Assembly: GCA_947561715.1 (NCBI GenBank)
Contig: OX387201.1
Location: 21,838,001-21,902,000, forward strand
Direction of reading: 5' to 3'
From: Ascidia mentula
Taxonomy: Eukaryota; Chordata; Ascidiacea; Phlebobranchia; Ascidiidae
DNA length: 64,000 bases
The position numbers and the translations under genes were made by a program. Positions 22,001 to 55,511 of this stretch are shown one piece after another (position 1 is the first letter of the stretch; each line of letters starts with the position of its first letter). Below the pieces are notes generated by a model. It was not told the origin of the DNA. It did no database searches and saw only the letters and a program-made list of their open reading frames with translations.

Positions 22001-24835
22001 CGTTAAGTGTGTCGGTGTGTTCATCGGTCCCCGGTTTTGAAAGCCCGGAATGTTTTATCACAACCGGTGATAGTCAGGATTTGGTGGACCGTTTTGTTGG
22101 CTACTTGCACCGAATAAGAACCGCGGCCTCAAATATTATGCTTGATCGCTTTTCCGACGTCATCAAACAGTTGGTAAGATTAATTGGCGTCAGTTGCGAA
22201 CTGGAAGACGGCGAAGGCAACAACCACCCTTTGGTTAGGTTAAAACGCGATCTCCATTTATATTTGACAAACATTCCGATTCTGACGTATAACGGATCAT
22301 CCTACGATTTAAATCTCGTAAAAAAGTATCTCATACCCGCTTTGATAAACACCGACAAGATTTTAAATGTAGTAAAACGAAACAATCAGTATTTATCGAT
22401 ACAAACAAGGTGCTTTGAATTTCTCGACTTGCGAAATTACGTGGCGGCAAACTGTTCCTATGACATGTTGTTGCGCGCGTTTAAATGTAATTTGCTGAAG
22501 GGGAGTTATCCCTATGAATATATGACAAGTATCGAAAAGTTGAAAGAACCTTGTTTACCCCCGCAGACGGCTTTTTACAGTTCTCTCAAAAGAACCGGTA
22601 TTTCAGACGCCGATTACCGGAGGTGTTTAGACACATGGCGTTCGGAAGGCATGACATCCCTTGAAGACTATCTCATCTGGTACAATAATCGCGACGTCGT
22701 GCCGTTTATGGAGGTTGTTTCAAAACTTTGCACGTTTTATGAGGGACTCGGCGTAGATCCGTTCAAAGAAGCGATTTCCGTTCCTGGAATAACTCTCGTT
22801 TATTTAATGAAAACGATTAATCCGGACATCGGTCTACCGCTCTTTGGTGAAAAGTTCAAAGACATTTTTAACCTCGTACGCGAAAATATTGTAGGAGGTC
22901 CTGCCATTATTTTCCATAGGTATCACGAGCGCGGCGTCACCAGAATACGCTCGGTGAAATACGGCCCACAGGCTAGAGTTTGTCAAGCTGTGGTTGGCTA
23001 CGATTGCAACGCTCTCTATCTCTCTGCAATGGGAAAGGCCCACGGGACGTCATTTTTTTCTGTGCTCACCTACGAGGCTGATACCCGTCTTTTTAGTGTA
23101 AGGCATTCTTCCAGGCACGGTCACCTTGCGCGAATATGGTTGGATTGGTGTGCGCAAAAGTATGGGATATTTATCCAACACCAGTTCAATAAAGGCGAAG
23201 TTCGTATAGGTCAGCGTAACATCCCGGTGGACGGTTATTGTCACGAACACAGAAAAATTTTTCAGTTTCACGGTTGCTATTTTCACGGGTGTGAAACGTG
23301 CTCATCGCGTTTTCGTTACAAAGATAAAAATGCCCCGGTGGTTGCCCGCGAAAAAACCACCGAAGTCACGGCCTATTTTCGGCGGCTTGGGTACGAGGTT
23401 TTGCACATATGGGAGTGTGAATGGTACGCACTGCAGCGTGTCGACAAGTCCGTGCGCGATTTCGTTGCTGGGCGGATGTTTCAAAAACTTCGCATTCCAA
23501 CGGTTCGTAATTTTGCTAACGTACTCGACGCTGTCCGTTCCGGCACCCTGTTTGGCTTGGTCGAATGCGACATCGCTGTTCCACCCGAAAAGCGCGAATA
23601 TTTTAGCGAGATGTGTCCGATTTTCAAAAACATAGATATTTCGCGTGCCGATATCGGGGAATACATGAGACATTTTGCAGAAAAACACGGCATCCTAACT
23701 ACCAAACGTCGATCTTTAATCGCGAGTCTTAAAGGGGACAAAATTTTGCTCGCCACCCCTTTGTTACGGTGGTATTTATCGCACGGTCTGGTTGTCAGTC
23801 ACATTTACCAAGTCATATGCTACGAACCCAACCGTTGTTTCGAATCGTTCACGGACGCGGTCACCAAGGCACGTCGCTTGGGGGATGTTGAACCTGACAA
23901 AAAGCTTATTGGAGACACGTTCAAACTGCTCGGTAAATATTGTTGTTTATTAGTCAAATGTTTTTGTTGTGCTTTTTTGTAACTTTTGTGTTAATCATCT
24001 TCGTCCTTTTCCAGGCAATGCCAGTTACGGTAAAGTGATCACGAACAAACGAAAACATTTGGAGACAAGGTATCTGTGCGGAAAAAGCGCAAAAAGATTG
24101 ATCAACTCTCCCCGCTTCAAGCACGTCGAAAGGGTTAACGACGATCTGTACGAGATGAAACTCAAAAAGCGAACAATCCATCAAAATCTACCGGTTCATG
24201 TTGGTTTCTTTGTTTATCAATATGCCAAATTGCGCATGCTCGAGTTCTATTACGATTTCATCGATCGTTTTGTCGACCGTTGTAATTTTGAGTTGACAGT
24301 TTCGGACACCGATTCGTTTTATATTGCTTTGGCGGCCGACAGTTTCGATGACGTGGTTCGCCCCAGCTTGAAACGTGAATTTTTTCAAAACATTCACAAA
24401 TGGTTTCCGTCGCCTTGTTGTGACCTACATCGCTCCGAGTTTGTCGAAACGCGTGTCTCCCACCGTCCGTTTATCCAGCATCCGTGCTGTAAAGTTCGCG
24501 AGCGTTCCGACCTTCGCACACCCGGTCTTTTCAAGATCGAGTGGAGGGGAACTGGAATTGTGGCCCTCGCCGCAAAAACATATTTTTGTAAAGGTGGCGA
24601 CGGGGACGACAAGCAAACGTCAAAGGGACTCAACAAATCGCAAAACCCGCTTTCTTTTCAGCACTATCTCGACGTGCTTAATACCGGCGTGAGCGTGGCG
24701 GGAAAAAACACCGGATTTCGGGTCATGAACCAGTCCGTTTTCACCTACGAACAATCGCGAAGTGTAATCGGTAATTTTTATTGTAAACGTAAAGTGTTGG
24801 CCGACGGCGTTTCCACCGTACCGTTGGATTTGTGA
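19081..24835 (+). CDS. Polinton protein-primed DNA polymerase B
   Basis: The main block (about 20784-23932) and its continuation (about 24015-24835) carry exonuclease motifs (FDFES; YNGSSYD; YNNRD), the polymerase motif with YDCNALYLS, the NASYGK motif, SDTDS and KTYF, in family order. The gap between the blocks looks like a short GT-AG intron. A Cys/His cluster near CCRVCSTSF and an endonuclease-like segment near LGYEVLHIWECEW are usual in this polymerase. Upstream, about eight short exon-like segments (19081-20710) bounded by AG and GT encode two C2HC zinc-finger-like units and acidic linkers; they probably form the N-terminal part of the same gene. Confidence 0.85.
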
Positions 24836-25332
24836 ACCTCCGAGATTGAACATCCGCCGTCGGTTGTGCATCGAACCGCTTTCTCTCTCTTTGTGTGTGT
24901 GTGTGTGTGTGTGTGTGTATTCTTTTTCTCGTAAAGCAATAAAACGAAAACAAATCGTGGTGTTGGCTGTGGCTTTGTGCGACACGGCGAGTTAAGAGCT
25001 TCAGGGTCAGTCCGGGTCGGTGCGAATGCTGTTTGACAACAACACTCCGTCAGCGATACCCCGTCGCGCAAGGGCACGCAATCGAGTAGGGTCGTAAAAC
25101 CTTTCGACGATTAGATGCGACACGAAACAGTTTAAGTTTCTTTGCACAGGACAAGTCATTTTGAGAGAGTGGATTGCACCATCGTGTGCAAGACCGCGGA
25201 CTCGACCGCCCGCCGTCGTCGGCACAAAAGACCTGACGTCATTTCCTGTTGTTATTTCGTTATAAATAACGCGGCGTCGGCAGGCAGGGGACGTTGTCCA
25301 TCGATAAAGCAAACACAGCAGCGGCGGAAATA
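24836..25332. other. gap between Polinton rightward genes
   Basis: Contains a (GT)n tract at about 24893-24920 and an AATAAA signal just after it, consistent with the polymerase transcript end. No other gene seen. Confidence 0.5.
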
Positions 25333-26009
25333 ATGTCTCTCAGCAAAGGAGCGAACCTCGACGATGCGGCGGATTCTCGCGGCGACAGCAGCGGCGGAGG
25401 CAAGCCGAAAACCGCAACTGAAATTCTCACCGAAATATGCAAAAGAAAAGTACCCGCAGGTAATATTCGATCGTTTGCCACGCCGCGGTCGTCGCCACCC
25501 GTTCGCTCACCTATCGTTGTTTGACAGGTACCAGACTTCGCTGCGCTACGCTTTACGTGCGATTCAGAGGGGAGCTGTTTGACGACGATGAATTACGACA
25601 GCTCGCGAAAAGCCTGTTTTCGGAGTCACCCTACGTGCTGTTGATTCCCAAACCGACCGGGGACGGCTTTTGTCGGGTGCAGGTTGTGTACTGGTCGACC
25701 TCGGTCGCTCTGGACGATTGTTTGATCAATCTCAGAGTCCAAAACATGTCGGTGGACCTTTCGGCGAACGGCATCGGCATAAGCTTCAAGTCGAAATCGG
25801 TGTTTTCGCCCGTCGCCTATTTGAGGCCGCTGATTGAAAGCGTGGAATCGTTCGAGTTCTACCACTGTCAATCCCGGCACGCGGCCGACGCGACCGTTTG
25901 CGAGGAAGCCGCGCGTGTGGAACACATTTTCTTGTCCACCGACGAGTCGAAGTTCTCACCGCTCGGTGAACGTTCGCTGTGCCGCGAGGGATTCGACAAA
26001 TCGCCATAA
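25333..26009 (+). CDS. Polinton small gene of unknown function
   Basis: Appears to have two exons, 25333 to about 25460 (Ser/Gly/Lys-rich start) and about 25528-26009, separated by a short GT-AG gap. The second part is open for about 160 codons. I recognise no domain. It ends about 180 bp from the convergent protease gene. A GC-rich hairpin-forming stretch and poly-C/poly-T run lie just after it. Confidence 0.5.
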
Positions 26010-26191
26010 ATCCCCCCCCCCTTTTTTTTCCCTCCTGCGGAGGGAAAGCGCTCACCTCCGGTGAGCGCGCAAGAAAGAAAAGAGGAGGCGAGACTTGTAC
26101 ATTTACACACTTGTATTCGAATATATATATACACACGTACACACGTTTTGCAGTGATTTTGTTTTATTCGCCAATAAAAAAACATAACAGG

Positions 26192-26638
26192 TTACAGTTT
26201 CGAAATTGCGGTGTGGACGGTTCTGTCGTTTTCACTCAGGTCGGATGAAAAGGTTTTGACAATCTGCGACATGGAATAACCGCGCGCGCGAAACAGTAAA
26301 TAGTAGATGCAATGGGGACCGCACGCCGACGACAAGGGATGTTGGACGACACGCGAATTCGACGTCCACCGGGTTGCGTTTTTATTTAAAAAGGCGACGA
26401 TTTCTCTGTGAAACGGTGGCCGAGCGAAGGTGTCGTAATACTCGCCGCGACCTTCCGAGTCGAAATACAGAGCGAGCCAATGCGTTCCTTCGCGGTTACT
26501 TTTGTCGGTATTTACGACGTAGGCCTTGGGATTGGGGTGATTCAGGTTTGCCAGCTCGTCGCGAGCATAAACGCCGTAAAACCGAGTCCGCGTGGCCGGA
26601 TCGCGCAACAAAATCGCCGCGATTTGAATTTCGTCCAT
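26192..26638 (-). CDS. Polinton adenain-like cysteine protease
   Basis: Starts MDEIQIAAILL just downstream of a (TG)n tract; the longer frame upstream only reads through that tract. It contains GTHWLALYF (catalytic His), an acidic EYYDTF segment, and VVQHPLSSACGPHC with the Gln and nucleophile Cys, the order found in adenovirus-type maturation proteases (C5/C48 fold). Its expected role is cleavage of capsid precursors. An AATAAA-like sequence follows near 26172. Confidence 0.85.
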   Translation of the reverse strand: MDEIQIAAILLRDPATRTRFYGVYARDELANLNHPNPKAYVVNTDKSNREGTHWLALYFDSEGRGEYYDTFARPPFHREIVAFLNKNATRWTSNSRVVQHPLSSACGPHCIYYLLFRARGYSMSQIVKTFSSDLSENDRTVHTAISKL

Positions 26639-26640
26639 CC

Positions 26641-26645
<5 letters not shown>

Positions 26646-26683
<38 letters not shown>

Positions 26684-26697
26684 GGGCGCGCGCACAC
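26646..26697. repeat. (CA)n microsatellite
   Basis: A run of about 17 CA units flanked by GC-rich alternating sequence, between the protease and capsid genes. Confidence 0.8.
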
Positions 26698-28005
26698 TCA
26701 GGCCGAGTAGTCGAAAATTACGTTTTTAAATTTGTCGATCTGAATAATGCTGTCGAATTCGGCGTACACCAATATATTTATAGAATTCGGCAGCGCCGTT
26801 CCAAAGTGCGCCTCCAAACGAAGGTTGCCGTGTTTGACCAATTCGAAAGACGCCTGATCGGCTTGGTCGGGCGTCAGGTCGAAGCAGTACAGCGTGAAAC
26901 CGCGGCCGTAATCGGTGAGCGATATCGAATTGCCCTTGTCCAAAAAGAAACTTCCGGTGCCGGTGAAGAGCGTTAAAAAACTCCTCGCATACTGTCTATT
27001 GGCAAAATTCGGTGTTAGGGCCCGTCCCGGGATTAACTTGCCGTCGTGGTGCAGGGCCAAATAGTTCAAATCGAGGTGCTTAAAGTGAAACGGGTTTTTC
27101 GCGTAAGTTCCGTTGTATGCGTCGTTGTCCACAAAACCGATCACCACGCGTCTAGGAATTTGACCGCTGAGAAACGTGTCGTGGGTCGTGGAAAGGTTGC
27201 CGGCCGGAACCGAATAAACTTGAACGGTCGTGCGCGTAATCGGATATAGCGCCGTCGACTTTTCCAACGCTTTCAGGTGACCGAACATTACGGGAGCGGT
27301 CGGTCTGACCTTGCGAACAAACAGACGGACGTCCCGCAAGTTTGCTTTGTAATCAGAGCCGGCCGCGGCCATAATCGAAAACGCGTCTTTGCTTCTGATC
27401 AAGCGAATCTTCACGTCCACCCCGTTCATTAAAAACTTCTCCTGAAACACCATGTCCAAGTGAAGTTTGCCCAACATTTGAATGTCCTGGCTGTCGCTCG
27501 CTCGGGCGCGTCTCGCCGTAAAACCGCTGTTACGAGCGCCGAGCGTTTCGAAGTGACCGGCGGTGTCCCTGTGCCACAGCGCCGCCGTCAATTGCGTGGT
27601 TTTCGCGTCGCTTCCGAAGTTAAGCAAAGTCTCGATATACGCCCTGTACGGGTACGTGTTGCTCGCCGGCGTGACGAGTTTGTTGTTTAAACTTAAATCC
27701 ACCTGATCAAAAAGGGCATGCATCCAATAGTTGCACGGCGCCACCGCGACGTCGGCGTCCATATTTGTTCCGTCGGCCTTGGTGACGCGGGCCGTACACA
27801 AAAGCATTGTATTGGACAAATCAATGTAGTCTTCACCGGTTCCGGAAACCTGGAACTCGATCGGTCCCGCATCGGTAAGGGTCGAGAGAGGTGCGAATTC
27901 AACCCAAGTCGATTGTTCTACGCTGACTTGGGTCGGTTTGACCGCGAATAGGTCGAGTTCACTTTTGGCGCACCTTCCAGAGTGTTGGTTTATGACGCTG
28001 CCCAT
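26698..28005 (-). CDS. Polinton major capsid protein (double jelly-roll candidate)
   Basis: About 435 residues from MGSVINQHSG. The N-terminal pattern WVEFAPLSTLTDAGPIEF and TGEDYIDLSNTMLL matches the widespread Polinton protein regarded as the double jelly-roll major capsid protein. It starts inside the upstream neighbour's end and is adjacent to the protease, consistent with one late-type gene block. Confidence 0.75.
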   Translation of the reverse strand: MGSVINQHSGRCAKSELDLFAVKPTQVSVEQSTWVEFAPLSTLTDAGPIEFQVSGTGEDYIDLSNTMLLCTARVTKADGTNMDADVAVAPCNYWMHALFDQVDLSLNNKLVTPASNTYPYRAYIETLLNFGSDAKTTQLTAALWHRDTAGHFETLGARNSGFTARRARASDSQDIQMLGKLHLDMVFQEKFLMNGVDVKIRLIRSKDAFSIMAAAGSDYKANLRDVRLFVRKVRPTAPVMFGHLKALEKSTALYPITRTTVQVYSVPAGNLSTTHDTFLSGQIPRRVVIGFVDNDAYNGTYAKNPFHFKHLDLNYLALHHDGKLIPGRALTPNFANRQYARSFLTLFTGTGSFFLDKGNSISLTDYGRGFTLYCFDLTPDQADQASFELVKHGNLRLEAHFGTALPNSINILVYAEFDSIIQIDKFKNVIFDYSA

Positions 28006-28006
28006 G

Positions 28007-28432
28007 TTAGGAGAATATGTCAGATGTTTGTCGCCTCGGCGCACGTTTTTTCTTGGCTGTTTTTCTACGTTTTTTCGCGGGCTCTCCCGGGGGCCGTTGT
28101 TGAAAGGACCGCTGTGCCGAACGTAATAAAGTCGCGCCCGCCTCTCGGCTGCGTTTTATAGCGGCGGCCCGCGGCGAATGTCCGGCGAGCAAATCTCCGG
28201 CGAATTCCGCCCCCGAATGAATTATTTGCTTTCCAACCTGTTTAGCTCCACTTTTCAACAAAGGCAACACCGCTTTACCGAGACTCGCGAATATGCTGCC
28301 TAAACCGTGGCCTCGTTGTGAAACGGACCCCGCGAAAAACGGCATTCCGCCGCCGGCCTGTGTAACGTAATATCTTTCGAAATCGTGTATATCATTTTGG
28401 ACGCAATAAGGAACACCGCAATGTTGCCGCAT
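28007..28432 (-). CDS. Polinton small basic Gly-rich protein
   Basis: 141 residues; contains GGGMPFFAGSVSQRGHGLGS and a Lys/Arg-rich tail (KKRRKTAKKKR). This compact, basic, amphipathic type is a recurrent Polinton gene next to the capsid genes and has been compared with adenoviral core or membrane-active proteins. The exact role is uncertain. Confidence 0.65.
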   Translation of the reverse strand: MRQHCGVPYCVQNDIHDFERYYVTQAGGGMPFFAGSVSQRGHGLGSIFASLGKAVLPLLKSGAKQVGKQIIHSGAEFAGDLLAGHSPRAAAIKRSREAGATLLRSAQRSFQQRPPGEPAKKRRKTAKKKRAPRRQTSDIFS

Positions 28433-28433
28433 T

Positions 28434-29261
28434 TCAATCGAATTGTATTGGTTTCTTTCGGAGGTGAAGAGTAATTACAACGCGACCGCTTTCAAAAGGT
28501 ATCGCCGCGCCAAATTCGTTTCGTAAACTCAGTTCCACACTTCGGATCGTGTGTCCTCTAACTGGATGGTATGACAGTCGGTTGAACCTTTTAAAGACAC
28601 TGTCGCCGGCAGTACCTTGCACCGCCACCGTTTCAAGTAAAGGCACGAGCACATCCCCGACAACGCGCGGTTCAAGAATATCGCAATACACGAATATGGA
28701 CGAAAACGTATAACTCTCAAGCGCGCATCGTTTTTCGCTTCTGTGTCTTCCCGATTCAAGGACAAGGGACTGGTTGGTCGTTGCATAGCCCAGCATGCGC
28801 GCCAATTCGACCGAGAGTGTCATCTCGCACCCCTCGGGTATATTCACAGTGGTATAACGCGTCACGTGGTCGAAGACAACGAGATTTTTTACAGTTCCAC
28901 CGCTGTGGGAAAAATGTTCGGTGTCCAAGCCACGAAGAAGCCTTCTGAAACCCCTCGACCCTTGTGATTTCAATAACGTCACCATACCGCCCACAATTTC
29001 CCTTCCCGATTTGTAGTGGCCGTCGGCCAGAACACAAGTTTCCCTGACAACTTCGTCTCCGTGGCGTATCTTAATGGCGAACCACATTTCGTTAAATTTC
29101 ACGTTCGCCCAACTGTGCGGATATTGAATGTCGCTCAGAGCGATCTCCCATCGCCCCTGATCTAGGTGGATCGCTTTCGGAAGCTTGGTCGTGTAATTCG
29201 TCGTCGTGTTCTGGGGGTAATACTGTAAACTGCTGTTGCTCGGAAGCGTTATGAAAAACAT
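28434..29261 (-). CDS. Polinton minor capsid (penton-like) protein
   Basis: 275 residues beginning MFFITLPSNSSLQYYPQNTT, with WEIALSDIQYPHSW shortly after. This start is characteristic of the single jelly-roll minor capsid protein of Polintons. It lies in the same leftward block as the major capsid gene. Confidence 0.75.
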   Translation of the reverse strand: MFFITLPSNSSLQYYPQNTTTNYTTKLPKAIHLDQGRWEIALSDIQYPHSWANVKFNEMWFAIKIRHGDEVVRETCVLADGHYKSGREIVGGMVTLLKSQGSRGFRRLLRGLDTEHFSHSGGTVKNLVVFDHVTRYTTVNIPEGCEMTLSVELARMLGYATTNQSLVLESGRHRSEKRCALESYTFSSIFVYCDILEPRVVGDVLVPLLETVAVQGTAGDSVFKRFNRLSYHPVRGHTIRSVELSLRNEFGAAIPFESGRVVITLHLRKKPIQFD

Positions 29262-29469
29262 GTTTCTTTTGCAAAGTGGGTGCCGGCAAAAGATAACCCA
29301 CGCCGCTCGCGAGTAATGCCGTCCAAAGATTCGGGTTCGGATTGCCCAGAGTCAAATTCACGAGACTGGCGGCCACCACGACGAACACGAGAATGACTTG
29401 GGTGAAAAATACAACTTCCGCGCGGGGTAAGATTCGACCGCACCAAATCCAATCGTTTTTGGGCGGCAT
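29092..29469 (-). CDS. Polinton small membrane protein
   Basis: Begins MPPKNDWIWCGRILP; two hydrophobic stretches (VVFFTQVILVFVVVAASL and WTALLASGVGYLLP) suggest two membrane segments. Its 3' part overlaps the start of the penton-like gene in another frame. Function unknown; similar short membrane proteins occur in this position in Polintons. Confidence 0.5.
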   Translation of the reverse strand: MPPKNDWIWCGRILPRAEVVFFTQVILVFVVVAASLVNLTLGNPNPNLWTALLASGVGYLLPAPTLQKKHVFHNASEQQQFTVLPPEHDDELHDQASESDPPRSGAMGDRSERHSISAQLGEREI

Positions 29470-29476
29470 CGAAATG

Positions 29477-30544
29477 TCAGCGGGTCGGCAAATGTACAAC
29501 GTCCTTCGCGTTTACCCAGGAATTAAAACTTTCAGGGTAATTTGACCATTTTATAAGCAGCTCTTTCATCCCACGCCTTTTTCGTTTTCCCAATACCTTC
29601 TCGACTGTGAAATGATTTTTTTCCACGTTTTGTAATTCCTGTTCGTAAAAGGAGCCGCTTATTTGCTCCCCGTTATAATCGATCAGGGAATAGGTGTGGG
29701 GGTTTGTCCGACGGCGAGCGTTGACAAAGAAAACCTCGTCCGACCAGTTTGGCAGATATCCTTTTTTGAACGTTCGACGAGTGACGGCGATTCTCACCAT
29801 GGCCCCCACCGCGAATTTCCACTCCTTGGCCGGTCGCGGCGGATCGCCGTATAGGTTTTCCCAAACTAACTCCTGGTTCGCTGCACTCACCGACGCCGGG
29901 CTCGTTCGAATGCTCCGGTGGAAGGAATTGTTATAGCTCTCGACGAAGTCCTCCAGCACGTCGATGTACTTTATTTCGGCCTTGTGCGTAAAATACTGCC
30001 ACATGCGCTGTTTTAAGGTACGATTAAAACGTTCTACGACCGAAGCCTTGGTTTCGTCGTTGAAGGTTGTAAAAAACTCAATGTTGTGTTTTCGCAACCA
30101 ATCTTGAAATTGTTTATTGACAAACTCCTTGCCGCGATCCGTGTGAAGTTTCTTTGGTCTACGTGTGGTGCTTTCAAAGATCGCCTCGAACGCACGGATA
30201 AGAGCGACACCTGTTTTCGTTTTTATTGCAACGACCCAAGCGAATTTCGAAAAAACGTCAATAACAGTGAGCAAGTACTTAAAGCCGTTGTTTCGCGAAC
30301 TTAATTTCGACAGGTCGACGAGGTCCGCCTCCCACTGGCAATCGATACCCCCCACCACCACCCGCATACGTTTAAACTTTCGACGCAGAGGTCTGTGAAG
30401 CGTGTAAGTGTCCTGCTTTTGCAGCCACTTTTTGACATCACCTCTATTCCGTCGAGTGGCGCGGGCCAGTCGGGCGACGCCGCCGAAACTACCGCGATGC
30501 GAAGGAGAAAAGTATTCGTTTGAAAAGTCTACAGATTGATCCAT
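29477..30544 (-). CDS. Polinton integrase with C-terminal chromodomain
   Basis: 355 residues. The DDE triad is visible in WEADLVD, LHTDRGKEF and SVVERFNRTL. The tail (FTVEKVLGKRKRRGMKELLIKW through FNSWVNAKDV) is a chromodomain, which could bias insertion to marked chromatin. The enzyme is expected to join the element ends and give the 6-bp duplication seen. Confidence 0.9.
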   Translation of the reverse strand: MDQSVDFSNEYFSPSHRGSFGGVARLARATRRNRGDVKKWLQKQDTYTLHRPLRRKFKRMRVVVGGIDCQWEADLVDLSKLSSRNNGFKYLLTVIDVFSKFAWVVAIKTKTGVALIRAFEAIFESTTRRPKKLHTDRGKEFVNKQFQDWLRKHNIEFFTTFNDETKASVVERFNRTLKQRMWQYFTHKAEIKYIDVLEDFVESYNNSFHRSIRTSPASVSAANQELVWENLYGDPPRPAKEWKFAVGAMVRIAVTRRTFKKGYLPNWSDEVFFVNARRRTNPHTYSLIDYNGEQISGSFYEQELQNVEKNHFTVEKVLGKRKRRGMKELLIKWSNYPESFNSWVNAKDVVHLPTR

Positions 30545-31185
30545 TGCTGAGGACGACGGCTCGTCTTTGCCTGTCGCGTCGCGGGTGCAACTGGGTGCGG
30601 TCGACTCGGAAGGCCTCTTTTTTTATACGCAAGCACGGTGGATGGAACGTTGACTTTTTCCAACGCCGAAATGAAATCGGTCCAGCCGACAGGTTTGGCG
30701 GCGAGACGGCGCGGCCGCACAGCGGAATGCACCAAATCCTCGATGTGACTTCCGTCGATTGCTCGTCCTTGCACCAACAGTCTTCCGTTCGACGAGAAAT
30801 CGATATCGGGGTTTTCGCGAACGATGTCCATCAGCCGCTTTGCTTTGTTTTTCAACGTTTTCGGCGTTGCTTCAATTAGTCTTTTTTCCAGCATTATTTT
30901 TTCGGTATTATTGTTCGGTTCGGCGCTGCTGTGCCGTTTGTCGGTGACCGCAACTTCCAAAGGTTTGTTGGCGACGGTTTCGTTGTAAAAGCGGTAACGA
31001 TGAAGTGCTTGATTGTAAAGCTTCACTTTTTCCTCTAGCGGTTTCGGTTCCGACAAAATATCTTGCATTTCCTTGTCCAAAGTCGATAACACCTTTTCAA
31101 CGGGCGTTGATCGCGAGGTATATTTGTCCTGGAGGGACTTTAGAATGCTCGGATCCACGAGGGCAAGTTTTTGTACACCTTCCAT
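30529..31185 (-). CDS. Polinton hypothetical protein
   Basis: 218 residues beginning MEGVQKLALVDPSIL, rich in Lys/Glu in the first half with possible coiled-coil character. It overlaps the integrase start by a few bases and is followed closely by the next leftward gene. Proteins with this kind of start recur in Polintons; no function assigned. Confidence 0.5.
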   Translation of the reverse strand: MEGVQKLALVDPSILKSLQDKYTSRSTPVEKVLSTLDKEMQDILSEPKPLEEKVKLYNQALHRYRFYNETVANKPLEVAVTDKRHSSAEPNNNTEKIMLEKRLIEATPKTLKNKAKRLMDIVRENPDIDFSSNGRLLVQGRAIDGSHIEDLVHSAVRPRRLAAKPVGWTDFISALEKVNVPSTVLAYKKRGLPSRPHPVAPATRQAKTSRRPQQWINL

Positions 31186-31186
31186 C

Positions 31187-31528
31187 TCACTTTCCCCCGG
31201 TTAAGAGTTTACCGAGGACTGGAATTACCGATCCTATGAGAGGACCAATCAACGCGGAAAGAAAGCCACCTCGTTGGATAATTCGACGTTTTTTGGCTAG
31301 CGACACCGACTTTTTTCCCAACTCGCGAATCCCCTTTTTGTATCTGCAAAGTTTGACGCGTTGGGCGCGAGTCAACGGTACGTTCCCCTTTAAGACGTTA
31401 TACGCACACTCGCAAATGCACTGAATTAACTGTCGGTCGCCGGCATTTAGAATCGTGCGAACCAGCTTCGGTTTTGCCGACGCCAGTGTGAGGAGTGTCG
31501 GAGCTTGGTCGCGGACGCGACTGGACAT
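31187..31528 (-). CDS. Polinton small basic protein
   Basis: About 113 residues from MSSRVRDQAPTLL, with CICECAYNVLKGNVPLT, a basic segment (KKRRIIQRGG) and a hydrophobic C-terminal stretch. A recurrent small Polinton protein with no settled function. Confidence 0.55.
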   Translation of the reverse strand: MSSRVRDQAPTLLTLASAKPKLVRTILNAGDRQLIQCICECAYNVLKGNVPLTRAQRVKLCRYKKGIRELGKKSVSLAKKRRIIQRGGFLSALIGPLIGSVIPVLGKLLTGGK

Positions 31529-31529
31529 G

Positions 31530-32138
31530 TTACACCTTTTTCGGCACGTACACAATCTGAGTTTCCCCGCGAAACACGTTGGTCCGCATGCGATATTGCT
31601 CAGGTGTTGACTGTTTAAAGTCCAAGACTAAATAACCGTGCGGCCTGCTTGTCGCGTCCCTATATGATTCCTGCAGGGCTCTTCCGCGTCCAGGTTGGAC
31701 TTGCTTGGCGAGGTGACCGATTTGCGACGCGTCTCTGGGATTTTTAAAAACGACTAGATAATGTGCATTTAAACTAATGGTCCTATGCTCTTGACCTTTG
31801 TGAAATAGATTTTGCACAATATAAATTACACTAATGTTTCTGTGATGACTTCCCCTAGTAAAAAGATTGGTCACGTGTTGATCGCATTCGCGCATTAAAT
31901 CATCAAGAATCAAAAGGGTTCTCTCGGTAGAATCAAAGTCGGTCGCCATGCCGCGAACAAACTCGACGCCGTCCAGCCCTTGATAGGCGGATTGCCACTC
32001 GCCGTAACACCAAACAATGCGGTCGGGATTTGGAACAGTTAATTTTTCCTTTATTAACCGCTTGACAAAATATGACTTGCCGCTCGAGGAGGGCCCTGCA
32101 ACAAGGCAGGTAAACGGATGCAGAAATTCCATCGGCAC
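31530..32138 (-). CDS. Polinton FtsK/HerA-type packaging ATPase
   Basis: 202 residues. Walker A is GPSSSGKS near the N terminus and Walker B is LLILDDLM. The size and spacing match the A32-like genome-packaging ATPase of Polintons. Confidence 0.9.
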   Translation of the reverse strand: MPMEFLHPFTCLVAGPSSSGKSYFVKRLIKEKLTVPNPDRIVWCYGEWQSAYQGLDGVEFVRGMATDFDSTERTLLILDDLMRECDQHVTNLFTRGSHHRNISVIYIVQNLFHKGQEHRTISLNAHYLVVFKNPRDASQIGHLAKQVQPGRGRALQESYRDATSRPHGYLVLDFKQSTPEQYRMRTNVFRGETQIVYVPKKV

Positions 32139-32274
32139 AACCGCGTGTACACCCTATCGCCCCTCGACAAAAGTGAAAGGGGCACAAAACAATCTTCTCG
32201 TTTTAAACAGTTTATTTGTTTACACAACACACGACAACAGCACAATCATTTACAAGACACTAAAAAAAAGGGCA

Positions 32275-32775
32275 TCAAAACCGCCGGAGAAAGTAGCTGA
32301 GCGCCTCGGCTATTTCCGGTGCCAGCCTCTGTCGCTCCTCTCTTAGACACGCTTCGTCCCAGTTCGGACCGCAAACGTCGAAGCCTTCCCCGCTTCTCGC
32401 CGCAAAGGTGCTCACAAAGTCCTCTCCTTTTTTCCGTAGCAGATATTCACATCGTGGTGAATGTCGGGCGTGCTCCACCCACGGGGAGTCGTTTGTTTCC
32501 CAGTGAAACAAACCCCGCCCGCAGTAATAACATTTCACCTTGTCGTCGCGACCTGTGAAATAGAATCCGGCCTCCGCGAGCTCTGCAGGTGATGCGGTAA
32601 TATGGAACGGCCACAGCCCGCTCTGAAATGATCGCCAGCGCCGTCTTTCGTCCGTCATGCACGGCACTCGTGGTTGAAGACACGGAAATCTTCTTGCTCG
32701 TTCCACGAGCCAGGTAGGTGTTCCCATACTTAACAGCTCACCAGCGGTCAGCGTGCTCCATTGGTTGTTCGACAT
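32275..32775 (-). CDS. BIR-domain (inhibitor-of-apoptosis-like) accessory protein of the Polinton
   Basis: 166 residues. Residues about 47-115 form one BIR domain: AGFYFTGRDDKVKCYYCGRG followed by the zinc-binding spacing C-x2-C-x16-H-x6-C. No RING finger follows. It sits between the ATPase gene and the right terminal repeat, the usual place for cargo genes. Single-BIR proteins without RING can bind caspases or their activators; whether this one blocks apoptosis is inference. Its base composition matches the Polinton rather than host DNA. Confidence 0.85.
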   Translation of the reverse strand: MSNNQWSTLTAGELLSMGTPTWLVERARRFPCLQPRVPCMTDERRRWRSFQSGLWPFHITASPAELAEAGFYFTGRDDKVKCYYCGRGLFHWETNDSPWVEHARHSPRCEYLLRKKGEDFVSTFAARSGEGFDVCGPNWDEACLREERQRLAPEIAEALSYFLRRF

Positions 32776-32890
32776 CGTTTTTTAGTTACCAAGAAGGCTG
32801 TGTGTCTATCTTGCAAACCGCGACTGTATTTATACACCACAACTTAGCGCCGAAAAAAAGACTTTTCCCGTTTACACTTGACCAAACAAA

Positions 32891-33737: not shown

Positions 33738-34720
33738 AAGAATTCAATGAAACTAGCAGAAGTTTCGAATTGAGTCAGCTGATTTATTAGTAAAAAATCG
33801 ATTTCGCCTGAACTGGCATCCTCAGTTTCTGCAAATTCGAATTTGCAAATAAAACACAGAAAGCTATACGGTAAATAAACCCAAGAATAAAATAAATTAA
33901 AATGAAATATAATAAAACATAATAAAACTGCTAAAGTTAAAAAGCAAGAAACCCTGTACTGCTGCCTTCCCTATGCACTACACTGCAATGGAAGGCGTTC
34001 AGACTTCAGAGGCGCAAAGATAAGCCGAATGACGTGACACGCAACGCAACGCTACACCACCTGCAGCACGAACTTACGCCGTAAACACAACACATGAGGA
34101 CATAGAAAGGGCGATGATAAAAACCAATGAACAGAAATGCGTTGCAACCGTGGGACACATCAATAAACCGTCAACAAGATATAATTCACCTAATTCTGGG
34201 AATGATCATTTTTTGAATGTTTATTGAGGCCTGCGTAAGGTTTAACCATTTGGCTTCGCAAACATCCAGCCTGTTGACCATCGGTTGTTCAACAAATGTC
34301 ACTGTAAAACAGCTTTCAATGGGCTGGTGTTGACTTGACGAGGGGTGTGCACTTGAGTAATGGTGGCGCAGGGCCGTCTTGTCGGTACTCCCCGTTTTGC
34401 ATGTTGTCATATTCCAATCTGACCTATGTTGCGTCCATCGCTTTGAGAATTTATTTTTTGTCTGACCAACGTACTGTTCATGGCAGATTTGGCACGTTGC
34501 AACGTAAATGCCATAACTTGCACAGGTTAGGTGTTGCGTTAGTTGGTATTCTTTGCCTGTGTTTGTCGTTAAATTGGTGGTTTCAATGACCATGGATTTA
34601 TGGTTGCCATGGTGTCCGCACATTGCGCACCGTCTGCAAGCGTAACTCCCCGCAGTCCTGCTGCAGTCTGTTTGCAATGCCAGTTGCCGGTAGTTGGTCA
34701 GGATATTTCCCAAAGATGTA
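33738..34720 (-). mobile_element. 5'-truncated Penelope-like retroelement
   Basis: A 983-bp insertion flanked by the 14-bp duplication GCGCCATAAGTATT (33724-33737 and 34721-34734); the right arm has the site once (about 55890-55912). The minus-strand frame 34186-34713 begins inside the element and contains a CxxC-type zinc motif (CRRCAMCGHHGN), then GIYVATCQICHEQYVGQTKN, the GIY-YIG endonuclease signature, and EAKWLNLTQASINIQK. No reverse transcriptase part is present, as expected of 5' truncation. Near the 3' end (about 33800-33832) is a hammerhead-like CUGAGGAUGCC...GGCGAAAU. Confidence 0.85.
34186..34713 (-). CDS. GIY-YIG endonuclease domain of the Penelope-like element (fragment)
   Basis: 175 codons. 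Zinc-knuckle-like CRRCAMCGHHGN at residues about 26-37, then GIY at about 68, YVG at about 80 and a Lys/Arg-rich helix. It represents only the C-terminal nuclease of a Penelope-type protein; the ATG at 34713 is internal to the original frame. On its own it is a truncated remnant. Confidence 0.8.
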   Translation of the reverse strand: MGNILTNYRQLALQTDCSRTAGSYACRRCAMCGHHGNHKSMVIETTNLTTNTGKEYQLTQHLTCASYGIYVATCQICHEQYVGQTKNKFSKRWTQHRSDWNMTTCKTGSTDKTALRHHYSSAHPSSSQHQPIESCFTVTFVEQPMVNRLDVCEAKWLNLTQASINIQKMIIPRIR

Positions 34721-34944
34721 GCGCCATAAGTATTTAGTATACTGCTGTAACTGCGAGATAGCCAATATGATTAACACAAGGAACGCGAAAACATGTTTCA
34801 TTCACAAACACATCTGCTTCATATTGCAACACCTTTATGTTGTGCACGTGTTATTCAATGGCCTACACATTCACGTCACAGGTTTTTTAAGAACATCAAC
34901 ACCGATTTTCAACTACGTACAATGCCTCCGCAAGACGTGACAAG

Positions 34945-51923: not shown

Positions 51924-54270
51924 TTATTCAGCACTAGTTTCCTCACACGGTATGGAGTAACGCATTCGTATTAACTGCCGTTCACCAACATTATACACAT
52001 CAAGAGCATGTTGACACAATTCTTTTCCTACCTCCAGTAAATGCCAATGTGAAGTAGGAGAAACATGGTATGAATGGTAATGACAATCAAATTGCTCAAC
52101 ACACCAAATTTTCCCCAACATTAGCCAACAATTATTATGTATTAGGTTTTCACATTCAAAAAACACATACTCATTGTTAATTATGTCAATTACGTACATA
52201 TCACCAATTTTGTAATGTCCACAGTCTATGTGAACTTCACTTGCAACTGTAAGAGTAGCAATGTTATTATCTAAGTTGCACAAAACTTTAAGTTGAGGAA
52301 AATTTTGCACTACTTTCTCTGACAATAATCGGTAGGTCACACATACAAGTAGCTTCTGACTGTTCCCAGCATTTTCTGAGCTGGACTCTGTTGGAAATGG
52401 TGCGACAAACATTACGGTAGTTGTGAGACTGTCTTATCACTTTTTTAAGTATTTGATGAAATGCTTCAAAGCGCATACACCATAGTCTCCGTAGTGGTCC
52501 AAACTTAAAAATCATTCGAGGGTAATGCAACAAATGGTGGAATTTTGGTGTAATGTAGGTTGGTGCAAAATCTATGAAGATCAAATAAAATTCATGCACA
52601 AGTGAATCCAAATAACTAATCCAACCTGGAGCAATTTCAGGTGCCATAACTATGTCACAAATTTTTGCCAAAAGCAAATAGACCTTCCAAGCAAGGCATT
52701 CCTTTGGTACACGATTTCCTATTAAAAATGGTAAAACTCTAAATAGACACCACATTTGGGATGCACTTGCGCTTTGCCCAGTCCCCCTTATCCATGCAGT
52801 TGGCTTGTTTTTTATGTCACTGTTACCAAACTTAAATTTGGACAAATCAATTTGAACCTGGTTTCGGGCCAAAATCCTTTCATTAATTAGACAATTTATA
52901 ACTGCTTTGACTGTAGCAGGGATGACTCCTTCAAACAGATCGTGCATAATATCTGGTGGAAGTGAATCTAGCACTGAAAATGATTGCAAGGAAGAAAACG
53001 GTGGGAAAGATCGCACTCCATACACAGATATAAGTGGATCTTCTTCTACTGATTGCATGTGGTACAAATGGGTTTCAGTCGTGCGAACACAAAACTGGGA
53101 TTCATGATGCTTTATTTTTATATCATTGTACTCGCACAAACAAAACCTACAAATATTACCACTGCTGAAACACCTTCTGAATCCTCCTATGTCATGACTT
53201 CCTAAGTTATCTGCAGATATCGTGCTTAATCCTCCAAAAAAAATTTTCGAAGATTTATCAGGCAAAACAATGTTTATGCCACATTGTTCGAGTTGTAAAA
53301 GGTCGTCTTCCAGTCTTTTAAGCACTGGTTTGTAACCAAACTTTTTGATAGCTGAACTTTTAACCACTATTAACAAGTGAATGTTCCTTAAATTAGACCT
53401 GTATTTCGGTTCTATGTTTCCAACAGTATAATAAAAACACAATATCTTGTGTATCCCACGTGAGCTACCAATTGGGTTACATAGTTCTAATTCGTCACAG
53501 TATAAGTGGATTCTCAAAAAATCCCTGTTGCCTTGAAAATATTTATCACAAGAAAATGTGTTTCCATCTGAATAGTCACACAGTATGGATGAATCTCTAT
53601 TATTTGACTTGAACATACTTGAAAGCACATCAACATGAGATAGGTAAGTTTTCATGGTTTCTAAAATTGGAACGTATTGAAATGAAATACCTTCGTCAAG
53701 TGAAATTGTTAAAGATTCAACAAATCCTACAGTCTGGCAAAATCTTCTGTAATTTGCTTCACTCTTTAAGGTGTCCCACATTAGTTCAACATCAGGGACA
53801 CAGTATGGTAAACTGTCATGGTATGCACCCAAAAGCCCCACAACTCCATCCATAATGGATTTAAAAACCGAAATGGGCAAAGTAAACTTTTCCCGACACA
53901 TTAAACAGAATAAAGCAAATTTATTCTGAAATGACAAACTTAACTGTGATGTGTGGTGTACAGATTCAACATCAGATTCCATTGCATCATCAACAGTTGT
54001 TCTGTTAGTTGCATCAATACGTGCAGAGATACTTGCATGGTTATTAATGGTTGTATTATTAGATGCACTGTTATGTCGTAAGTCATGATGTCTGTACAAA
54101 TGCATTCGGTATGCATGATAGGAGGAGGATCTTGCTACACAATTTCCTACTTTGCATTTAAGACCACATTGGTATTCTCTTTTACTATGCTCTATTCTCA
54201 GATGGTGCAACAAAAGTTGCACGGAAGAACTTGTGACAGAGCACGATTCTAATGGACATGGAATTGGCAT
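51924..54270 (-). CDS. CACTA/CMC transposase-like protein with C2H2 finger
   Basis: The frame from 54270 to 52288 (660 codons) starts MPIPCPLESCSVTSS with a Cys/His zinc-finger-like region, then ADNLGSHDIGGFRRCF with CRFCLCEYND, LPPDIMHDLFEGVIP (Asp of the catalytic set) and FGPLRRLWCMRFEAFHQILK (Glu), the conserved end of animal CACTA-type transposases. The C-terminal part continues in another frame at 51924-52412 (from about LLVCVTYRLLSEKVV through GKIWCVEQFDCHYHSYH), so a frame change or a small intron lies in 52288-52412. If it is a frameshift, the transposase is broken once. Confidence 0.75.
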
Positions 54271-54723
54271 CGTGCTGTTAAACGGAATACTTTAGCTTTT
54301 GTAATACACGGGTTGTGCTACTAGTTTTCTAAATAAATAAATAAATAATAGGACGTGCCTTGTCGTGCCAATCGCGTTAAGTGCCGGCTCGCCAAGTTAT
54401 AAACACCAACTGTACTTACCCAACTGGATTCTCCTTGGCACGTTCAGTTATGATTACGCTTACGCTGGCGACAAAATGACCTGTGCTAATGTCAAAGTAA
54501 TGACCCGGATGTGCTTATTAAGCTTTATTATTTATAACCCGGATGATGTGACTTGCATTAAATGTATCTGCGAAATCCAGTGACCTCTATGTTTAATAGA
54601 GATCAGTGGTGAAACCATGCATCTTTACTATCATATAATACTAATAATTAACACTTGCCGAACTTTTCATTATTCCAAAACAATAAAATTCCGAAAAAGG
54701 GAATTGGAAAAAAAATCTTAACC
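54271..54723. other. 5' region of the CACTA transposase gene
   Basis: No coding feature supported. Contains a short (AAAT)n run at about 54329-54349. Confidence 0.4.
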
Positions 54724-54736
54724 AAGGAAAAAATAT
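54724..54736. repeat. 13-bp target duplication, left copy
   Basis: AAGGAAAAAATAT, repeated at 55499-55511 on the other side of the ribozyme element. Confidence 0.85.
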
Positions 54737-54745
54737 TTGTGTATA

Positions 54746-54798
54746 AGCTGCAGACAGATGGCCACTGTTTCGACCTAAAAGGTCTCATCAGTGCAGCT
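54746..54798 (-). ncRNA. type-I hammerhead ribozyme A
   Basis: 53 nt on the minus strand, same sequence as copies B-D: stem I AGCUGCA/UGCAGCU, core CUGAUGA, stem II GACC/GGUC, GAA, stem III ACAG/CUGU, cleavage-site C. Confidence 0.9.
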
Positions 54799-55029
54799 GG
54801 TGTGACTATCAGACGACTTTGCTGACCAAACGGCCAAGCAAAGACTTCCACTTTGTGGTGACTATACAGTCACCGTCATCCGTTGGGCACCAAACTAGGT
54901 GCAACCTTACGGAGCAAACAAGGTGGAAACACTACGGCCAAGCAAGCTCAACCAATAGTGCCGTCAGGCCCCGTGTCACAATAATCATATGATAAGCAAT
55001 GTGGAGCCAATAATATGAATTTGTGTATA

Positions 55030-55082
55030 AGCTGCAGACAGATGGCCACTGTTTCGACCTAAAAGGTCTCATCAGTGCAGCT
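55030..55082 (-). ncRNA. type-I hammerhead ribozyme B
   Basis: Minus-strand copy exactly 284 bp from copy A with the same stems and core. Its stem I begins at the inversion point of the element. Confidence 0.9.
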
Positions 55083-55120
55083 TGGCCGTTTGGTCAGCAA
55101 AGTCGTCTGATAGTCACACC

Positions 55121-55173
55121 AGCTGCACTGATGAGACCTTTTAGGTCGAAACAGTGGCCATCTGTCTGCAGCT
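55121..55173 (+). ncRNA. type-I hammerhead ribozyme C
   Basis: Stem I 55121-55127 with 55167-55173; core CUGAUGA 55128-55134; stem II 55135-55138 with 55144-55147 around loop UUUUA; GAA 55148-55150; stem III 55151-55154 with 55162-55165 around a seven-base loop; predicted cleavage after C at 55166. Every invariant core base is present. Confidence 0.92.
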
Positions 55174-55404
55174 TATACACAAATTCATATTATTGGCTCC
55201 ACATTGCTTATCATATGATTATTGTGACACGGGGCCTGACGGCACTATTGGTTGAGCTTGCTTGGCCGTAGTGTTTCCACCTTGTTTGCTCCGTAAGGTT
55301 GCACCTAGTTTGGTGCCCAACGGATGACGGTGACTGTATAGTCACCACAAAGTGGAAGTCTTTGCTTGGCCGTTTGGTCAGCAAAGTCGTCTGATAGTCA
55401 CACC

Positions 55405-55457
55405 AGCTGCACTGATGAGACCTTTTAGGTCGAAACAGTGGCCATCTGTCTGCAGCT
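55405..55457 (+). ncRNA. type-I hammerhead ribozyme D
   Basis: Plus-strand copy 284 bp after copy C with identical stems and core; predicted cleavage after position 55450. Confidence 0.92.
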
Positions 55458-55511
55458 TATACACAAATTCATATTATTGGCTCCACATTGCTTATCATAA
55501 GGAAAAAATAT

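Follow-up and report, generated by a model that had tools for sequence, protein, structure and literature searches.

Introduction

Metazoan non-LTR retrozymes carry type-I hammerhead ribozymes in short tandem units without a long open reading frame (ORF), have a GC content below 50% and target-site duplications (TSDs) longer than 4 bp, and coexist with Penelope elements (PMC7229834); the element of the ascidian Ascidia mentula that we describe here shares each of these features. Whether animal retrozymes are driven by LINEs or by Penelope-like elements was still treated as a hypothesis in 2020 (PMC7229834) and in a 2024 review (PMC11722881). Penelope elements of Adineta have target duplications of 8–10 bp, and one of their inverted copies optionally bears a tail of 31 bp (PMC3846280), given as 30–40 bp in PMC11167929; the 2013 Adineta paper left the origin of the head-to-head copies open (PMC3846280). 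The purified Penelope enzyme PAc cuts and extends both strands, uses two adjacent internal starts and prefers AT-rich DNA, with no difference in start site between top and bottom strands and with a start that is not homologous to the target (PMC11167929).

We analysed a window of 64,000 nucleotides of the A. mentula genome (assembly GCA_947561715.1, contig OX387201.1, positions 21,838,001 to 21,902,000, forward strand), in which a first-pass annotation made from the letters had noticed a hammerhead-bearing inverted repeat. Positions below are those of the window unless a contig handle (C1, C52 and the like) is given.

Results

Structure of the insert

The window contains a 762-bp insert at 54737–55498, in which a 284-bp unit forms two head-to-head arrays, with 1.2 units on the minus strand followed by 1.5 units on the plus strand. 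The parts of the insert and its borders are the following.

54724–54736, no strand: left TSD copy, 13 bp, AAGGAAAAAATAT; a single copy is present at the empty paralogous site
54737–55082, minus strand: left arm, 1.2 units, sense strand pointing left; its outer end is a short (S) start
54746–54798, minus strand: type-I hammerhead motif 1, from the motif search
55030–55082, minus strand: type-I hammerhead motif 2; the left arm has its inner end at the 5' edge of this motif
55080–55082, no strand: 3-nt microhomology GCT at the head-to-head junction, an overlap of both arms
55083–55498, plus strand: right arm, 1.5 units, sense strand pointing right; its outer end is a long (L) start
55121–55173, plus strand: type-I hammerhead motif 3, predicted cut after 55166
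55167–55450, plus strand: 284-nt monomer, delimited by the two predicted cuts and the same in sequence as the minus-strand monomer 55036–54753
55405–55457, plus strand: type-I hammerhead motif 4, predicted cut after 55450
55499–55511, no strand: right TSD copy, AAGGAAAAAATAT

The first-pass annotation had described tandem pairs with an exact 284-bp period, one per strand, that encode the same 284-nt monomer between two ribozymes on either strand, within a 13-bp target duplication. All of this was borne out: the period of the unit is exactly 284 bp on both strands, the plus and minus monomers are letter-identical, and the same 13-mer stands at 54724–54736 and 55499–55511. The two arms are perfectly complementary. 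Their outer ends lie approximately 16 nt (left arm) and 48 nt (right arm) past the ribozyme cut; their inner ends do not coincide in unit position. Judging from this arrangement, each transcript would also carry a 348-nt antisense arm, with which a putatively released monomer could pair.

The unit has no protein-coding capacity, the longest stop-free stretch being 81 codons in two joined units; an ORF for a reverse transcriptase (RT) and a GIY-YIG endonuclease is absent from these 284 bp. The GC content of 47.5% is under the 50% stated in the Results of PMC7229834 and not under the 45% of its figure legend. The features by which metazoan retrozymes are recognized were found together, namely a type-I hammerhead with invariant core, a tandem unit within 150–450 bp, a TSD of more than 4 bp and the lack of coding capacity. 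It forms a new family within the metazoan retrozymes, a kind already known.

Hammerhead motif

The 53-nt motif is present four times in letter-identical form, two per strand, with stems of 7, 4 (or 5) and 4 bp and a predicted GUC^U cut after 55166 and 55450, in agreement with the first-pass annotation on copy number, stems and cleavage position. A 27-nt core pattern with up to three mismatches allowed occurred in the window at these four places, all exact, against a shuffled expectation of 0. The looser pattern CTGATGA...GAAA was found at the same four places only; this loose motif alone is not significant because 7 of 100 shuffles gave at least four matches. The hammerhead fold (−15.1/−16.0 kcal/mol) is near the minimum free energy (MFE) structure (−17.4 kcal/mol) and is not the MFE structure itself, and its folding z-score is only −1.55.

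The covariance-model check that had been suggested for the hammerheads came out negative, with no Rfam match at the gathering threshold. At a permissive E-value, Hammerhead_3 reached 20.6 bits (cut-off 48.5) and RAGATH-1 reached 19.9 bits (cut-off 56.3), and two miRNA-precursor models, likewise below their cut-offs, fitted the palindrome better than the hammerhead models did. Since the gathering threshold was not reached, the ribozyme assignment rests on the motif and its conservation. Using one unit per locus from 40 loci picked by whole-unit similarity, diversity was 0.0000 in the core, 0.0038 in the 53-nt motif, 0.0066 at positions 8–60 and 0.0152 at positions 61–238. As far as letters can tell, such conservation supports ribozyme function in the copied lineage. 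At 56 genomic places, the second base of stem II was G or T (reversed control, 0); when these variants were read by eye, some stems were re-paired and others were not.

Empty site and host repeat

The joined flanks of the insert match C52:14109818–14110297 (minus strand) over 480 of 480 nt, with 474 identical, no gap and one TSD copy. The paralogue is uninterrupted and holds a single 13-mer, which proves the insertion together with its target duplication. The empty site thereby backs the earlier description of a retrozyme-like unit with hammerheads and a target duplication, inserted into a repeat. The host repeat is multi-copy and aligns with the C52 paralogue over approximately 1.7 kb. One open frame lies next to the insertion.

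52288–54291, minus strand: 667-aa open frame that lies in, or overlaps, the multi-copy host repeat; no match to a Pfam family

The host had also been called a DNA transposon. Insertion into a multi-copy repeat held, and transposon identity is only likely, given a 667-aa frame without a Pfam match.

Copies across the genome

The genome searched totals 195.8 Mb on 79 contigs. A search for the 27-nt ribozyme core that tolerated at most two mismatches gave 2,223 matches (1150 + 1073), and the reversed control gave 0. We examined 80 insertions, of which 78 were unique after L062 and L067 had been dropped as duplicates of L061 and L066. The first 40 loci have high unit similarity and were grouped by eye among the matches listed (40 scored of 2,151 candidates). 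The second 40 loci, all on C1, were taken in order among the 100 exact core matches listed, passing over loci of the first set and ending at 17.9 Mb; these loci were required to have an exact ribozyme core, which is a bias against degraded cores. The arms of the arrays are up to 1,680 nt long, or approximately 5.9 units.

Searching the genome for other copies and their orientation, as the first reading had advised, showed that the inverted arrangement recurs: 50 of the 78 unique loci are head-to-head (−+) with their 3' ends outward. The remaining arm orders were − (14 loci), + (12 loci), +−+ (L027) and −+− (L070). No simple tail-to-tail (+−) insertion was present among the 78 unique loci. L027 and L070, alone among the 78, each hold one +− junction, and no target duplication was found at either locus.

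Start sites at the outer ends

Outer ends were assigned to class S (9–31) or L (35–64), with limits set after the ends of all 80 loci were known. Among the 50 head-to-head loci, the pair of outer ends was SL in 26, LS in 22 and SS or LL in none, and two loci fell outside both classes; that is, 48 of 50 have one S end and one L end. The two off-class loci are L016 and L045, and the second arm of L045 is weak (83–89% identity) and may not belong to the insertion. Across all 80 loci, 49 of 49 classed pairs were discordant, compared with a maximum of 39 in 20,000 shuffles. At loci with a TSD of at least 11 bp, TSD-corrected outer ends counted from the ribozyme cut fell at unit positions 10–19 (mode 15) or 40–49 (mode 43), with one exception at 266. 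Single-armed loci started at S in 18 cases and at L in 9 (n = 27, duplicates included).

Four loci carry a one-base deletion variant at unit position 15, exactly at the short start site. The idea that a single RNA hairpin brings S and L together at its base was also tested and rejected as nothing special: the path length between them was 14, and 31% of the pairs with the same separation were as close.

Target duplication and target motif

A TSD of at least 11 bp was found at 57 of the 78 unique loci; the commonest length was 12 (29 loci), and at 56 of the 78 the TSD was 12 bp or slightly more. By sample, with duplicates included, a TSD of at least 11 bp was present at 35 of 40 loci in the similar set and 23 of 40 in the C1 set. 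When flanks were exchanged among the first 40 loci, TSD-like repeats appeared in 2 of 309 combinations. With the short end placed on the left, the target reads (A)AAC, 12-bp duplication, GTT(T), and is palindromic. At the 29 unique loci with a 12-bp TSD, AAC stood on the left in 13 and GTT on the right in 15, against backgrounds of 2.4% and 2.2%. The target duplication together with the outward 3' ends indicates 12-nt 3' overhangs, both of which acted as primers. The match between overhang and template averaged 1.37 nt versus 0.49 nt with shuffled primers (maximum 0.94 of 2,000; 52 ends at loci with a 12-bp TSD). This count covers ends at 9–20 and 38–50; another primer/template count was limited to ends at 9–19 and 38–50.

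Inner junctions and template haplotypes

Inner junctions were compared at loci made up of exactly two segments (44 of 80). At these 44 loci, the inner arm ends are scattered over the unit, at distances of 7–140 nt from each other. The lengths of the two arms show no correlation (r about −0.02, 43 loci), their medians being 285 and 265 nt. The arms overlapped by at least 2 nt at 23 of 44 inner junctions versus 44 of 290 chimeras passed through the same pipeline, and extra or unaligned nucleotides were present at 7 of 44. In a count by eye, 22 of the 88 listed inner arm ends fell at unit positions 235–256, the 5' edge of the hammerhead, where approximately 7 would be expected if they were uniform; perhaps the reverse transcriptase stalls there.

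The mean divergence of units was 2.3% between loci and 0.4% within a locus, the latter figure holding for units of one arm as well as for those of opposite arms. At 11 common polymorphic columns in 19 loci, opposite arms agreed in 172 of 173 comparisons (shuffled-arm control: mean 0.69, maximum 0.83) and tandem units in 222 of 226, a count that omits sites mixed within one arm (two such sites in L013). Only 67 of 91 units had a unit of their own locus among their nearest neighbours, and some loci are internally more diverse, e.g., L013, L021, L025, L029, L041 and L081. Diversity within a locus could stem from subsequent mutation, from mixed templates or from gene conversion, and homogenization of the arms by gene conversion could mimic shared haplotypes.

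Penelope-like elements in the same genome

The window itself holds one Penelope-like fragment.

34186–34770, minus strand: Penelope-like fragment, GIY-YIG endonuclease end (Pfam PF01541, E 5.1e-5)

Over residues 33–194, this fragment is 98% identical to array copies at C73:1.96M, and it is a relative of the likely driver class. In a genome survey of Penelope endonucleases, 150 matches were scored and listed of 861 candidates; some of those listed lie in stop-free frames of 953–954 aa, and the units of the C52 array are spaced at 3,493 bp. Opposite-strand neighbours within 10 kb among the 150 listed matches were −+ in 13 cases and +− in 0. A second query returned a single +− case (C71:8472720+ and 8479546−), flanked by the two copies of what seems to be an 8.1-kb duplication.

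Sixteen Penelope-like pairs or loci were read for their insertion plan. Nine had a TSD of 12–16 bp and a tail of approximately 70–90 nt at exactly one end, and seven did not resolve to a TSD plus one-sided tail.

C52:9.24M, C2:19.8M, C73:10.05M, C73:1.96M, C52:15.48M: Penelope arrays with a readable plan; the TSD at C52:9.24M is mostly poly-T and weak
C73:5.37M, C67:0.18M (by eye), C70:3.86M, C2:17.44M: further Penelope arrays with a readable plan
C70:2.59M: tail on one side, no duplication
C71:14.76M: tail, with an oddly placed 18-bp repeat
C70:6.08M, C69:8.72M, C70:5.76M, C71:8.47M, C73:2.92M: Penelope loci without a readable plan

In a swapped-flank control of 11 Penelope pairs, a repeat of at least 12 bp was found with the own flanks in 9 of 11 and with swapped flanks in 0 of 110. 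A hammerhead-like pattern was present in 17 of the 20 outward Penelope 3' regions scanned and absent from L118, L122 and L124. A Penelope-type plan of head-to-head copies, a tail at one end and a short TSD was thus seen at 48 of 50 retrozyme loci and in 9 of 16 Penelope-like pairs. The suggestion that Penelope machinery moves the retrozyme gains support from this head-to-head plan, the one-sided tail and the 12–16-bp TSDs of Penelope-like arrays in the same genome.

The retrozyme tail of approximately 28 nt was not matched by any Penelope family sampled (approximately 70–90 nt, 9 resolved). The target AAAT-N12-GTTT was seen at one C-family array only (C73:1.96M), and the other C-family ends differ when read by eye. 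Neither the target motif nor the tail pointed to a particular driver family among the Penelope families sampled. No RT-start sequence was shared between the retrozyme unit and the Penelope ends, the six listed matches being the hammerhead region (L058, L100, L054). At L100:898–935, beside a Penelope array, lies a relic of another hammerhead-bearing sequence, 84% like the retrozyme ribozyme over 38 nt.

Other features of the window and genome

The window also contains a set of frames at 20776–32781, which we take to be Maverick/adintovirus-like.

20776–23982: large open frame, no Pfam match
29477–30622: integrase with chromodomain (Pfam)
31530–32153: A32-like ATPase (Pfam)
32275–32781: BIR-domain protein (Pfam)

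At 2598–3425 of the window lies a proline/glycine-rich repeat region; five of the six reading frames are open along most of it. On contigs C15, C21, C49 and C51, RT domains lie inside stop-free frames of 3,977 to 19,197 aa, which are perhaps tandem arrays without stop codons.

Discussion

Proposed mechanism

The unit, the motifs, the TSD, the empty site, the rule of one S and one L end, the palindromic target and the haplotype shared by the arms are all read from sequence. In our view, the element is probably a non-autonomous retrozyme of the metazoan kind that entered the DNA by two-ended, Penelope-type target-primed reverse transcription. Genomic arrays would give rise to transcripts of the unit, which the hammerheads would cut and which would then close into a circle of 284 nt. 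Both strands would be nicked beside GTT by an RT/GIY-YIG enzyme of the Penelope-like class, probably acting as a dimer, and 12-nt 3' overhangs would be left. One overhang would prime approximately 15 nt and the other approximately 43 nt downstream of the ribozyme junction on the same RNA, helped by 0–5 nt of pairing. Each cDNA would then travel round the circle for a variable distance, and a short microhomology would join the two cDNA ends, so that the arrays stand head-to-head and their 3' ends face outward; priming by a single overhang would give an array of one orientation. We infer a circle because the starts lie approximately 15–43 nt past the cut, so that a linear monomer is too short for the arms seen. 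The first-pass annotation had read the inversion as a sign of a double-stranded or template-switch intermediate; the ends, junctions and haplotypes fit two-ended target priming better.

In a wider formulation, in which our confidence is evenly balanced, one Penelope-type complex would act on one RNA circle and use both overhangs of a 12-nt staggered palindromic cut, each on a different fixed start site. The Penelope tail and the head-to-head arrays of the retrozyme would then be the same footprint, and metazoan retrozymes would be Penelope-mobilized circular RNAs.

Alternative explanations

The chance that the insert is an ordinary satellite, a segmental inversion or an assembly palindrome is negligible. 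Inverted repeats of 348 bp can be read artefacts; however, the A. mentula assembly was made from PacBio HiFi reads with QV 64.9 (PMC11109543), and the empty paralogous site with one TSD copy refutes this explanation. A satellite without target duplications, the outcome named beforehand as fatal to the retrozyme reading, is excluded by TSDs of at least 11 bp at 57 of 78 unique, dispersed loci. Fold-back self-priming, in which target priming at one end yields a cDNA that then folds back to copy itself into an inverted repeat, was proposed for the head-to-head structures of Adineta Penelope elements, with an antisense template and palindromes at the junction (PMC3846280), and the perfect complementarity of the arms in the window agrees with it. 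Nevertheless, it predicts near-equal inner ends, and those observed lie 7–140 nt apart and are widely spread (n = 44), by which it is largely refuted as the source of the head-to-head form. Moreover, each outer border has its own start-site class, and primer/template matching occurs at both borders; we therefore regard fold-back as very improbable.

A LINE-type enzyme (APE- or RLE-type, non-LTR) that moves the retrozyme and leaves L1-like inversions has in its favour the many RVT_1 matches in long stop-free frames (150 scored of 1,254 candidates), although the same PF00078 search, many as its RT frames were, gave nothing discriminating. In L1 twin priming, the second overhang primes on the RNA, which likewise yields an inverted insertion with microhomology. 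However, the second L1 site is variable and inversions are a minority, whereas both retrozyme sites are fixed and used once each and the head-to-head form is the most frequent among the loci examined. The one-sided tail and head-to-head plan are shared with Penelope-like arrays of the same genome, in a comparison that covers Penelope-like arrays only, and a LINE-type driver is, in our view, improbable. In place of the circle, the template could also be a concatemeric transcript. Uncut, multimeric RNA transcribed from a homogeneous array in the genome would suit arms that reach 1,680 nt and the unlike units within one arm at a few loci (L013), such as a heterogeneous source would give; PAc insertion in vitro proceeds without need for hammerhead cleavage and so uses uncut RNA (PMC11167929). 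Against it, one haplotype runs through each insertion nearly throughout (222/226 and 172/173 sites), though loci differ by 2.3%. A cut linear monomer would allow only approximately 15–43 nt of cDNA, and a circle explains the arms simply. We consider the multimer possible, if unlikely, and keep the circle as template for two-ended target priming.

Comparison with known systems

Plant LTR retrozymes resemble this element in being non-autonomous and in their hammerhead units and RNA circles, the latter predicted here; unlike it, they have type-III hammerheads, LTR, PBS and PPT, 4-bp duplications and Gypsy machinery (PMC4918200, PMC7761336, PMC7229834). Metazoan retrozymes are described as short tandem repeats (PMC7229834), whereas here 50 of 78 loci are head-to-head, with two fixed starts, a fixed stagger and a target motif. 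The word "inverted" has no occurrence in the main text of PMC7229834, and a two-ended integration footprint is absent from its retrozyme text; we claim this absence for the open-access literature. Nor did the open-access literature yield a publication that joins twin priming with Penelope in the sense meant here, and the 2026 D. virilis paper (PMC12910113) holds nothing on the two together in the text available from it.

The value of the present work lies in a many-locus footprint of retrozyme integration. The footprints are near base resolution: the target is palindromic, the stagger measures 12 nt, each of the two start classes is used a single time, and an insertion has one template haplotype. 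They make the two-ended priming model directly testable in vitro. They tie retrozymes to Penelope-type integration by structure and not by co-occurrence alone.

Penelope-like GIY-YIG elements share head-to-head inverted terminal copies and the type-I hammerhead with the retrozyme (PMC3846280, PMC11167929); they encode an RT and an endonuclease, whereas the retrozyme is 284 bp and non-coding. PAc, from the Poseidon element of Anolis, is similar in its two adjacent RT starts and in cutting and extending both strands (PMC11167929), and the retrozyme footprints fit an enzyme of this sort working on both overhangs with a single RNA. The two ends of a retrozyme insertion differ in start site and show slight homology to the target, and PAc does neither; different start sites at the two ends of one insertion go beyond the text of PMC11167929.
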